Shown: positions 21,147 through 43,219 of the stretch, piece after piece
How the letters are laid out: every line of letters begins with the position of its first letter
Position numbering within the stretch: position 1 is the stretch's first letter
From: Singulisphaera sp. GP187
GTDB taxonomy: Bacteria > Planctomycetota > GCA-002687715
Direction: 5' to 3'
DNA length: 64,000 nt
NCBI GenBank assembly: GCA_945907755.1
Contig: CAMDTN010000002.1
Location: 64,055 to 128,054 of the forward strand
The notes under the pieces: generated by a model
Told to the model about the DNA's origin: nothing
Seen by the model: the letters and a program-made list of their open reading frames with translations, nothing else
Databases searched by the model: none
Program-made: the position numbers and the translations under genes

Positions 21147-22064
21147 TCAAGCCAGCACGGCGCGCAGCACGTTGCCGCGCGCACCTTGCAGCTTGAGGCC
21201 CAACGCGTGGGCCACGGTGGGGGCTACATCCAAAGATGATCCGCCGTTGCGCACGAGGCCTAAGGATTTGAACGCCGGCCCGCAGAAAAGCAGGGCCATG
21301 CGCGGCGGTTCTTTCGCATCGGCCACAGGGCGCGGCAGAGCTGCCAGCACCAGCGATGCCGTTGTTGCAGCTATCTCTGCCAGCCCGCGATCCAACCCTG
21401 CAAACCATGCGGAGCGATTGTCCTCGGGTGCATCCAACAACAGCGTTGTTAGAGGCGCATTCATGCGCGTCGAGATTCTGTTCGCTGCTTGCACCGCAGT
21501 GAAAAGCACCTTGTCGGCGCCGCTGCCTGGGTCCAGCAACCCGGCCGCGATGGTCTCGCGCAAGGCCAACGCTGTTGCGCTGCTGCGTGCTGATTGCCCC
21601 AACACTTGCAGTGCCATTTCCAGCGCAGGGCTAAGCGCCGCTGGTGGCGGCAGCGTGCAGCGACTCATTCCCTGAGCACTGAAGCGCAGCGTCGAGAGAC
21701 TTTCCGGCACAACGGTGTGCAGCGCTTCCACAGGGCCGGAAGCGATGAGTGGGCAACAGAGGTCCGCGCGCAAGGCCAGTTCAGCGACGCTTGGCTGCAG
21801 TTCTGCGTTCAGCGCAGCGACATCATTGCTGCGCAGCAGCGCGTTCCACTGCGAGGTGGCGTCGTTGCCGACGGCTTTGGCCGCGGCGTATACGCTGCCA
21901 GCTGCTGCCAACGTCTTCCATGCCGTGAGCGCGGTCATTTCTTCGGGTGCCGCGTGCCGCACCACCGCGAAAATGATGCGGGGCGCTGCGGCTAGGTTGC
22001 GCCGCCACAGTGCCGCAGCCAGCAACGCCGCACCGATGCCAAGAGCTTCACGCCGCGTATTCAT
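21147..22064 (-). CDS. Tat-like secreted protein with alkaline-phosphatase/DUF1501-like C-terminus
   Basis: MNTRREALGIGAALLAAALWRR twin-Arg signal; C-term LDVAPTVAHALGLKLQGARGNVL resembles sulfatase-fold/DUF1501 ends; ATGA overlap with upstream gene. Confidence 0.5.
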   Translation of the reverse strand: MNTRREALGIGAALLAAALWRRNLAAAPRIIFAVVRHAAPEEMTALTAWKTLAAAGSVYAAAKAVGNDATSQWNALLRSNDVAALNAELQPSVAELALRADLCCPLIASGPVEALHTVVPESLSTLRFSAQGMSRCTLPPPAALSPALEMALQVLGQSARSSATALALRETIAAGLLDPGSGADKVLFTAVQAANRISTRMNAPLTTLLLDAPEDNRSAWFAGLDRGLAEIAATTASLVLAALPRPVADAKEPPRMALLFCGPAFKSLGLVRNGGSSLDVAPTVAHALGLKLQGARGNVLRAVLA

Positions 22065-24082
22065 GGCCCGTACCTTCTGGACTCTGCACTGAAGAGAACC
22101 GCCGCCACCAGTTCGTTGCGTTGCGCGGCGGGCGTCGAGCGGAACAGTTCCAACTCGGCCGTGCTGGGAGAGCGTTGCAAACAGCGCTTGATGCAGTCGC
22201 TCCACGCGGCTTCGTCGGCGGGCGCGGTCAGCGTCAGTAACAGCGGCAGCGTGGCCACTGCATCAGCACCACCGATGGCGCGCAGTTCTTGCGTGCGCCG
22301 TTCGACTTCGCCCGGCCGGGGCAGGCGCGCTAACCCGTGCACGATGGCGGCCGCCACCAGTTGGTCAGGTGCCATGTTGCGCGCTGCAGCTTTGCTCCGC
22401 TGCTCAGGACTCAGCCATTCCAATTGCAGCGCGGCGAGTGCACGCGGGTCTTGCGCTACACGGAAAATGGCACGGCGTGTGCCATCCGCATCCAAGGCTG
22501 CGCCCAAGCACCTGCGTGCTTCGCCTTCAACGAGCCTGCGGAAAAACCCCGGCTGCCGCGCGAGGATGTTCAGCAGATCTTCCGCTGATGCTCCGCGTTC
22601 CCCGAACAAGGCCACGCGCTCGCCGCGCAACATGTGCTCCGCGGCGGTGCGTAGGTCTGCATCGTCACACTGCGGGGCAGGCAAGTACATGCGCAGCAAG
22701 GCAGCCGCCAACATCGTGCGATCGGTCTCGCTGATTAATGCAGCCTCTGCCAATTGGCGCATGGCTTCGGGCAGGCTCATCGACCCGCTCGCCAATGCAC
22801 TCACCATGCCTTCTGGTGGCTCGCCCGTGCGCAGCGGTGCCGCCATTTCTGCGAGGCGCGCGCGTGCACATTCTGCGTTGGCGAGCAGTGCTGTGATGCT
22901 GTCTGCTGCGCTGCTGTGGAGCGCTTCGCTCAACTCGTCGGGCAGGGGCGGGCGGCGCAAGAGGTCGAGGTACAGCGCGGTCACTGCACGGCAGTCCGGC
23001 GCAGGGCCAGTAAGACGGCCTTGACCATCCAGGAGCCCCGCGGCCTGCACTTCCGCGAGCTCTCTGAACTCGCCGCGCACACGACAGCGGCCAAGGACAG
23101 CCCATGCGTCGTCGGCAGCAGGTTGCAACTTGGTCAGGCGTCCTGCAGCCGCACGCTGTTCGGTCAGCAGTTCGTGTTCTGCGCACCACTGCATGAGTGC
23201 GCGCAGTGCGACAGGGTTGCGCGCGCGGCTGGCACGGGCGTTGTGGATGGCGTTGTAGTCAGGCTTGAACGCAACGGCATTGATGCTGGCGATGGTTTCT
23301 GTGCTGACGCGCAGCGGCGGGCCACCGGCGCTAGGCTGCAACAGCAGCGTTTCGCAGTCGCCGCCATCGAGGAGTTCGCCTTCGTGCACCGTGCCGTCCC
23401 GCAGCTGCACGCGCCGCACTGGTGCCGACGGCGCGGCGGGCGCTGCAGTAGGTTCTGTTGTCTCGGGCTCAGTGGCATCTGGCGCTGCTGCGTCCTCTGC
23501 ATTGTGGCTTGGAGGCAATGTGCCGCTTGCGGGGCCTGGCACTGTCACTGGCATGTTGTCCGCGTGCAAAGGCGTTGCTGCATCCGGCACCGGGGCGGCA
23601 TCATGATGCGACGCGGCAGCGGAGTCCGGTGCTTCAGCGGCAGAGAACTCGAGAAACAGAAAGAAACCTGCAACGGCTACAGCCACGAGACTCAGCATCA
23701 GCGCCAGCGCCTTCGAAGCACTTCGCGAAGGTGGCGTGGTGAGTGCCGCAGCGTCGACTGCTGCGGATGCGATGGTGATAGTCAACTGCTGCAGTTCGCA
23801 GCGCACGGCGCCGAAGCGCAACTGCTGCCCACCGCGCGCCGCAGTGGGGGCACTAATGCGGATGTCATCAACGAAGGTGCCGTTGCTGCTGTCCAAGTCG
23901 GTCACCAGCACATGGTCTTGCGCAGGTTCTAGGCGCGCATGGAAGCGCGAGATGGTGCTGTCCTCGAGGCGAATGGTGGCGTTGTCGCCGCGGCCGACTA
24001 GGGCCCCAGCATGAGGCAGTGGCACGGTGCGATCATCGAGGATCGCGTTGCGGATGCGCAGTTGGAAGGGCGGGGCGGGCAT
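22061..24082 (-). CDS. FHA domain + TM + DUF1549/DUF1553-like C-terminal region
   Basis: N-term FHA: ALVGRGDNATIRLEDSTISRFHARLE...VTDLDSSNGTFVDDIRI; TM ALALMLSLVAVAVAGFFLFLEF; C-term ALYLDLLRRPPLPDELSEAL and LVAAVLFSAESRRY. Confidence 0.7.
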   Translation of the reverse strand: MPAPPFQLRIRNAILDDRTVPLPHAGALVGRGDNATIRLEDSTISRFHARLEPAQDHVLVTDLDSSNGTFVDDIRISAPTAARGGQQLRFGAVRCELQQLTITIASAAVDAAALTTPPSRSASKALALMLSLVAVAVAGFFLFLEFSAAEAPDSAAASHHDAAPVPDAATPLHADNMPVTVPGPASGTLPPSHNAEDAAAPDATEPETTEPTAAPAAPSAPVRRVQLRDGTVHEGELLDGGDCETLLLQPSAGGPPLRVSTETIASINAVAFKPDYNAIHNARASRARNPVALRALMQWCAEHELLTEQRAAAGRLTKLQPAADDAWAVLGRCRVRGEFRELAEVQAAGLLDGQGRLTGPAPDCRAVTALYLDLLRRPPLPDELSEALHSSAADSITALLANAECARARLAEMAAPLRTGEPPEGMVSALASGSMSLPEAMRQLAEAALISETDRTMLAAALLRMYLPAPQCDDADLRTAAEHMLRGERVALFGERGASAEDLLNILARQPGFFRRLVEGEARRCLGAALDADGTRRAIFRVAQDPRALAALQLEWLSPEQRSKAAARNMAPDQLVAAAIVHGLARLPRPGEVERRTQELRAIGGADAVATLPLLLTLTAPADEAAWSDCIKRCLQRSPSTAELELFRSTPAAQRNELVAAVLFSAESRRYGP

Positions 24083-24140: not shown

Positions 24141-24182
24141 AAAAAGGGAGACCCCGGGGGGAATCACTCGGCCCGGGGTCTC
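24141..24182 (-). terminator. Intrinsic terminator on minus strand
   Basis: Minus strand: GAGACCCCGG GCCGAGTGATTCCCC CCGGGGTCTC CCTTTTTCTCC; perfect 10-bp stem followed by T5. Confidence 0.75.
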
Positions 24183-24210
24183 AGTTGTTCGACGCGCGCA
24201 CGCGTGCGGG

Positions 24211-24255
24211 TTACGGGTCCGCACACGAACAGCAGCGCCGAAATTCGTGCCTCAT
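24211..24255 (-). CDS. Candidate micro-ORF MRHEFRRCCSCADP (14 aa)
   Basis: ATG...TAA between promoter and terminator; CC-S-C codons; overlaps previous micro-ORF as ATGA. No clear SD. Confidence 0.25.
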   Translation of the reverse strand: MRHEFRRCCSCADP

Positions 24256-24305
24256 GGAGCACAGGCACAGCCGGGGAAAACGGTCGCGCCTCCCAAAGGC
24301 TTCAT
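24252..24305 (-). CDS. Candidate micro-ORF MKPLGGATVFPGCACAP (17 aa)
   Basis: ATG...TGA near the predicted transcript 5' end; no clear SD. Confidence 0.2.
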   Translation of the reverse strand: MKPLGGATVFPGCACAP

Positions 24306-24324
24306 GGAAGCCAGTGGGAGGGTC

Positions 24325-24353
24325 AATATAGGCAGGTGGTTCCAAGGGGTCAA
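24325..24353 (-). promoter_or_regulatory. Sigma70-type promoter, minus strand
   Basis: TTGACC-N17-TATATT (5/6 and 5/6 to consensus). Confidence 0.6.
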
Positions 24354-39969: not shown

Positions 39970-40251
39970 ATGGCTGTCCACAAGAGCCTCAGACCGAGCA
40001 AGGGTGCTGCGAGTAACCGCAGCGTGCTGTCACGTGCCGAACGCCTCGAACAACTTGCGAAAGAGGGGCGTTGGAAGAAGGGCGACAAGGTTTTGGGTGT
40101 GCCCAAGACGCGCGTCTTGAAGGCGAAGGCGAAAGCCAAGCCTGCGAAGAAGAAGGATGACGCAGCGGCTCCGGCAGCAGCGGCAACCAAGGCAGCAGGC
40201 GCTAAAGCGGCGCCAGCCAAAGCGCCAGTCAAAGCGCCAGCCAAGAAATAG
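39970..40251 (+). CDS. Small basic protein (TIGR04137-like) with Ala/Lys/Pro-rich histone-H1-like tail
   Basis: MAVHKSLRPSKGAASNRSVLSRAERLEQLAKEGRWKKGDKVLGVPKTRVLK followed by KAKAKAKPAKKK...AKAPVKAPAKK; SD aaggaaacgct. Confidence 0.8.
   Translation: MAVHKSLRPSKGAASNRSVLSRAERLEQLAKEGRWKKGDKVLGVPKTRVLKAKAKAKPAKKKDDAAAPAAAATKAAGAKAAPAKAPVKAPAKK
40210..40245 (+). repeat. 12-bp tandem repeat encoding APAK/APVK/APAK
   Basis: GCGCCAGCCAAA-GCGCCAGTCAAA-GCGCCAGCCAAG inside the small basic protein tail. Confidence 0.85.
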
Positions 40252-42959: not shown

Positions 42960-42988
42960 TTGCACACTCTTGCACATGGCCTTATGCT
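42960..42988 (+). promoter_or_regulatory. Weak candidate promoter for the Lys-rich micro-ORF
   Basis: TTGCAC-N17-TATGCT; 3/6 and 4/6 matches only. Confidence 0.25.
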
Positions 42989-43067
42989 CCCGCCCGTGTC
43001 CTCAGGGACATGAAGAGGTTACGGGACCTTTTCAACCGTTGGTACTCCAAAATGGGGGTAGGGAATC

Positions 43068-43133
43068 ATGGCTAAGAAAACTGCGAAGAAGAAGGCTGCA
43101 AAGAAGGCAAAGCGCGCGACTAAGCGCAAGTAG
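43068..43133 (+). CDS. 21-aa Lys/Arg/Ala-rich micro-protein MAKKTAKKKAAKKAKRATKRK
   Basis: ATG...TAG, purine-rich GGGGGTAGGGA upstream, strong hairpin immediately downstream; below the ORF-track length cutoff. Confidence 0.6.
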   Translation: MAKKTAKKKAAKKAKRATKRK

Positions 43134-43150
43134 GCCAGCAGTTCGATTCG

Positions 43151-43187
43151 AACCGGGCCGTTGCTCTTCACGAGCAGCGGCCCGGTT
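43151..43187 (+). terminator. Strong intrinsic terminator
   Basis: AACCGGGCCGTTGCTC TTCAC GAGCAGCGGCCCGGTT then GCATTTT; 16-bp stem with a single G.T wobble. Confidence 0.85.
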
Positions 43188-43219
43188 GCATTTTACCCTG
43201 CAATTTCCGGTTATTATTG

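Follow-up and report, generated by a model that had tools for sequence, protein, structure and literature searches.

A gene for a 21-residue, lysine- and arginine-rich H1-like micro-protein is likely to be controlled by a trans-encoded small RNA (sRNA), which would bind a hairpin of the mRNA leader through a kissing-loop contact and repress the message. Both genes lie in the 64,000-nucleotide stretch of DNA analysed here (the window), on contig 2 of the 2.68-Mb genome G000 from an uncultured order of the phylum Planctomycetota. Comparison across a sample of 12 genomes of the order, covering three families (f1, f2 and f3) and genera g1-g7, with 380 other genomes of the phylum as outgroup, shows a conserved open reading frame (ORF), a conserved leader structure, an sRNA gene and order-wide complementarity between the loops of the two RNAs. 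What stands out most is not the dedicated terminator, part of the compact arrangement in which a sequence-only reading of the DNA saw a sign of high expression, but a conserved leader, predicted to be regulatory, whose Shine-Dalgarno (SD) sequence is sequestered, together with the gene of its putative partner sRNA elsewhere in the window.

The sequence-only reading had proposed a 21-amino-acid (aa) ORF at 43068, and the frame was confirmed: it runs on the plus strand from an ATG at 43068 to a stop codon at 43131-43133 (43068-43133) and encodes MAKKTAKKKAAKKAKRATKRK, in which 12 of the 21 residues are Lys or Arg (10 K and 2 R), one fewer than the 13 first counted. Copies in the order were collected by DNA search of genus and family members, which found the micro-gene in all members examined, and by covariance models of the leader, which detected it strongly in 9 of the 12 genomes and weakly in two more where gene and synteny are present. 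Syntenic orthologues occur in 11 of the 12 genomes, and the order Der GTPase, 153-aa protein, micro-gene and, mostly, a 430-aa protein is kept in members of the three families. One leader match in G010 (L019) was discarded as spurious, and the true leader is probably in the absent part of this 77% complete genome.

The orthologues range from 20 to 141 aa, and their length changes in-frame. Short forms have 21, 20 and 21 aa in g1, 30 in g4 and 24, 24 and 24 in g5; long forms, built of KRKAT/KKKVA repeats, have 141 aa in g3, 124 in g6 and 139 in g7, and in g2 the contig ends after 88 residues. The proteins consist almost wholly of Lys, Arg, Ala and Thr (with Val in f3) and have no acidic residues. 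The g1 copies start with ATG and those of the other genera with TTG. Between G006 and G008, which belong to a family other than that of the window, all 10 codon differences are synonymous and none is non-synonymous (P ~ 2e-6 under a simple model), which indicates that the ORF is translated; G000 and G002 differ by five synonymous codons and two Ala/Thr exchanges. Synteny and the balance of synonymous and non-synonymous change were the checks suggested by the sequence-only reading, and it had named a frame broken while the hairpin persists as the result that would count against a gene. The opposite was found: synonymous changes have left the frame intact, and the micro-protein is a genuine conserved gene of this order.

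The locus is predicted to be a one-gene transcription unit. Upstream, a candidate promoter, TTGCAC-17-TATGCT (42960-42988, plus strand), was read from the sequence, and TTGCA occupies the same position in other f1 genomes; a consensus promoter scanner made no call at 42960-42988. Transcription would start at about 42995. Downstream, the 16-bp terminator stem described earlier is present at 43151-43187 (plus strand), with arms AACCGGGCCGTTGCTC (43151-43166) and GAGCAGCGGCCCGGTT (43172-43187) around a TTCAC loop. It starts 17 nucleotides (nt) past the stop codon and is followed by a short T-tail, GCATTTT, and in the orthologues with an available 3′ end the stop codon is likewise followed by GC-rich hairpin-forming sequence. 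The fold of 42995-43200 reaches -84.1 kcal/mol against -63.3 ± 4.7 kcal/mol for dinucleotide shuffles (z = -4.4). The idea of an easily missed monocistronic micro-protein with predicted promoter and terminator is supported. In G001 and G002, an inverted repeat 5′ of the micro-gene (GTTGCAGC...TTTTGCAAC; L002/L003) overlaps the -35 region and is possibly an operator.

The leader extends for about 75 nt from the promoter to the start codon and forms three hairpins on the plus strand. In helix 1 (TGTCC-TCAG-GGACA, 42997-43010), all four scored pairs change on both sides. Helix 2 (GAAGAGGT-TACGGG-ACCTTTTC, 43012-43033) combines a constant loop with a stem that is rewritten in f3 with pairing kept, the lower stem there being GUGG/CCAC (L017) or GGAU/AUCC (L018); its tip, GGUU(U)(U)ACGGGACC, is found in 10 of 11 leaders, making the loop nearly invariant. 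Helix 3 (43043-43060) pairs an anti-SD segment, TACTCC (43043-43048), with the SD sequence GGGGTA (43055-43060), and is conserved with compensatory change. The G-rich stretch that had been seen before the ORF, GGGGGTAGGG, proved to be the SD region of this conserved leader. Overall, both bases differ in 9 of 20 pairs, and the covariation score was equalled by no shuffle out of 500. The unpaired probability of the SD was 0.01-0.20 in 8 of the 10 folded leaders, the remaining two having 0.48 and 0.60. No match to the leader was found in Rfam, nor a convincing one by the leader models in the 380 other genomes of the phylum. An origin of the leader as a phage element was rejected, the phage search giving no match.

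An order-wide search with the leader loop gave 31 matches, roughly the number expected by chance for a 12-base pattern. A wider regulon was therefore rejected: the genomic total is close to chance, and those inspected matches that belong to neither leader nor sRNA are in sequence with no relation to them. A subset of the 31, however, is mutually orthologous, intergenic, followed by a strong terminator and on the strand antisense to the leader. In the window this locus was found by BLASTN from G002, at 24360-24118 on the minus strand (243 nt at 81% identity, a span that takes in promoter and terminator); its identification is therefore independent of the loop. The predicted promoter consists of TTGACC (24353-24348), a 17-nt spacer and TATATT (24330-24325), that is 24325-24353 on the minus strand. 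Near-consensus sigma-70-type promoters (TTGACC/TTGACA/TTGCCA, 16-17 nt, TANNNT) stand before the sRNA in each of the nine genomes of f1 and f2, and none was recognised in f3. An intrinsic terminator, GAGACCCCGGG...CCCGGGGTCTCCCTTTTT, lies at 24141-24182 (minus strand) and has its stem in all 12 order genomes. Promoter and terminator would delimit an intergenic transcript of about 178 nt (24141-24318, minus strand), which contains the hairpin GTGCGG-ACCCGTAAC-CCGCAC (24204-24224, minus strand). Its own terminator, its intergenic position and, in f1 and f2, its own promoter are the marks of a trans-encoded sRNA.

The covariance model of the sRNA (R3) matches all 12 order genomes (E 1e-9 to 1e-23), and its helices covary with a score that 0 of 500 shuffles matched. 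Outside the order, R3 scored at most 33.7 bits in the 380 phylum genomes, whereas even the weakest order member reached 44.6; the weak matches in G201, G372 and G251 (32-34 bits) are probably terminators only. Five sRNA loci gave no Rfam match up to E 0.5, and the window gave none at gathering scores. The leader/sRNA pair has no Rfam match and is apparently undescribed, as far as a limited literature search shows. The sRNA locus is 19 kb from the micro-gene in the window and, where both share a contig, 19-26 kb upstream on the opposite strand. A gene for an FHA-domain protein (22061-24082, minus strand) lies directly downstream of the sRNA, an arrangement kept in f1 and f2 and unseen in f3.

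The sRNA hairpin carries an anti-loop, CCCGUA(A)(A), complementary to the leader loop U(U)(U)ACGGG. In the window, the sRNA segment CCCGTAACC (24217-24209) is complementary to GGTTACGGG (43017-43025) in leader helix 2. Pairing was measured as the longest contiguous Watson-Crick run between leader and sRNA, with random segments of the same genomes as background, because whole-length duplex energies were uninformative, duplexfold joining long gapped duplexes. The longest runs in 11 genomes were 9 (G000), 9 (G001), 12, 14, 15, 14, 13, 13, 15, 13 and 16, and they always involve leader hairpin 2, some 35-55 nt ahead of the start codon. Background runs averaged 6.3-6.9 with maxima of 9-11, so that conserved complementarity of 9-16 bp against a mean below 7 goes beyond chance, with the 9-bp run of the window's genome at the background maximum, six of the sRNAs found through the loop search and hence ascertained for complementarity, and the orthologous copies not independent events. 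When the sRNAs of the different genomes were exchanged by permutation and compared over 16 flanking positions, support for the cognate pairs was borderline (p = 0.054 for Watson-Crick pairs and 0.11 with GU pairs), because the leader scarcely varies.

Loop and anti-loop also change together. Their lengths match by lineage, with UU/AA in most of f1, UUU/AAA in f2 and g6 and UUUU/AAAA in g7; in G003 and G004 the stem also takes part in the complementarity (ACCUUUUC/GAAAAGGU). In G011 the leader stem has changed to ACCAU and the sRNA opposite it to AUGGU. The sole altered loop (GGTTGTGCGACC, in G001) coincides with the sole lost anti-loop, the sRNA of this genome having no CCCGUA. Taken jointly, the conserved RNA gene, the loop-to-loop position, the matched lengths and the co-loss make chance very unlikely, and this judgement rests on no single test. 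Elsewhere in the G001 sRNA there is a 9-nt complement, GCACAACCT, possibly a re-wired pairing site; it could be chance, since 0.6% of random segments have such a site.

The likely mechanism is as follows. Hairpin 2 of the mRNA leader would expose U(U)(U)ACGGG while hairpin 3 hides the SD sequence, and the sRNA hairpin would expose CCCGUA(A)(A), so that the two hairpins could meet loop-to-loop and extend to a duplex of 9-16 bp. A structured ribosome-binding site needs a standby site on which the 30S subunit can land; the duplex would most likely repress translation by blocking this site, by opening the mRNA to RNase III, or both. The amount of the putative DNA-compacting peptide would then follow sRNA output.

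The same RNA pair might instead serve activation, pairing at hairpin 2 helping to open the SD hairpin or protecting the mRNA. Since most leaders hide their SD in the default state, the mRNA would be off until an activator acts, and in f1 and f2 the anti-SD sequence ACCUC could find a second partner in GAGGU, the 5′ arm of hairpin 2; this arm is, however, not kept in f3, and when hairpin 2 was masked in the fold, which mimics bound sRNA, SD accessibility was not raised, its change being inconsistent and no built-in switch being seen. Owing to this inconsistency the direction of control is not readable from the structure. Activation appears unlikely, and we infer repression by analogy with the chlamydial pair IhtA/HctA and with base-pairing sRNAs whose target sites precede a structured ribosome-binding site.

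Other readings separate the two RNAs. The putative sRNA could be a cis-acting attenuator leader of the FHA-domain gene (24082, minus strand), its loop match being chance or secondary, and the f1 and f2 terminator does stand just upstream of that gene. We disfavour this as improbable, because all three f3 genomes keep the RNA before a protein that has no BLAST match to the FHA gene; chance also fails to account for runs of 12-16 bp and matched loop lengths. A protein, for example the micro-protein itself, might bind hairpin 2 and autoregulate the gene, the sRNA being unrelated. Such a site would fit the near-invariant apical sequence on a changeable stem, but would leave unexplained why another conserved RNA carries its antisense copy and why the loop lengths change together, and we give this reading a similarly small probability. 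CsrA in particular was rejected as the loop-binder: csrA (PF02599) was undetected in all 12 order genomes while control genomes were positive, which makes its binding unlikely. That the ORF is incidental low-complexity sequence in a locus producing only a regulatory RNA agrees with its very short, repetitive composition, but is extremely improbable in view of the ten-to-zero synonymous bias between G006 and G008, the in-frame length changes and the long orthologues.

The favoured reading, repression through a kissing-loop sRNA, has parallels in known systems. CopA/CopT and RNAI/RNAII are loop-loop antisense systems in which complementary hairpin loops kiss and extend, as is proposed here; they are encoded in cis on plasmids, whereas the planctomycete antisense RNA gene is 19-26 kb distant. 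IstR-1 represses the tisB toxin mRNA at a standby site and, as the present sRNA would do, binds far upstream of a sequestered SD, but it differs in its toxin mRNA target and is without the conserved loop-to-loop design at an H1-like leader. Closest, and the best reading of the leader/sRNA pair, is that it would work like chlamydial IhtA/hctA; homology is not claimed. IhtA represses the H1-like protein HctA in Chlamydia (PMC4355289; PMC3469542), and the planctomycete pair, within the same PVC superphylum, would likewise join a stem-loop sRNA with a terminator to the mRNA of a lysine-rich H1-like protein through a hairpin loop. The IhtA contact, made by loop 1, is 7 nt long and surrounds the start codon of hctA (PMC4355289; PMC3469542), whereas the conserved planctomycete complementarity covers 9-16 nt and does not reach the start codon, the hairpin loop of the structured leader being about 35-55 nt further upstream. 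IhtA is in Rfam according to a review (PMC9029176), unlike the planctomycete sRNA loci searched, and its neighbours, sctC and Thr-tRNA (PMC3469542), differ from those of the planctomycete gene.

Few sRNAs are known in Planctomycetota, and a 2022 review lists eight for the whole PVC group (PMC9029176). The present find adds an order-wide sRNA with a named candidate target, both halves being defined to the base. Control of H1-like nucleoid proteins by sRNAs may be a recurrent or ancestral PVC strategy, with the planctomycete sRNA either an independent second instance beside IhtA/hctA or its strongly diverged relative, using a kissing-loop mechanism on a target that may be as small as 20 residues; we consider this a serious possibility that falls somewhat short of likely. 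Repeated sRNA control of bacterial histone-like proteins in the PVC group becomes directly testable alongside Chlamydia IhtA.

The H1-like composition noted by the sequence-only reading was borne out in part. The long orthologues consist of Lys/Arg/Ala-rich repeats of variable number, as in HC2-type proteins, and HC2 (PF07382) matches were found in four genomes, in three of them at the micro-gene orthologue (long forms). All, however, are below the 40-bit Pfam cut-off, the best having 36.7 bits (the G009 orthologue), so that "H1-like" is a label of composition and does not place the protein in that family. No Pfam family matches the 21-aa peptide, and G000 has no match to PF07382. The long orthologues resemble the lysine-rich short-repeat protein HC2/hctB in their variable length, but Hc2 has 165-237 aa (PMC2848022) against 20-30 aa for the short forms. 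To judge from composition, the micro-protein is probably a DNA-packing peptide that would bind nucleic acid. An H1-like protein may be only 20 residues long, and such genes tend to escape gene callers. In the same window, 3 kb upstream of the micro-protein, 39970-40248 (plus strand) encodes a 93-aa "small basic protein" with a long Lys/Ala-rich tail, which matches NCBIfam TIGR04137 (Chlam_Ver_rRNA) with 73.7 bits.
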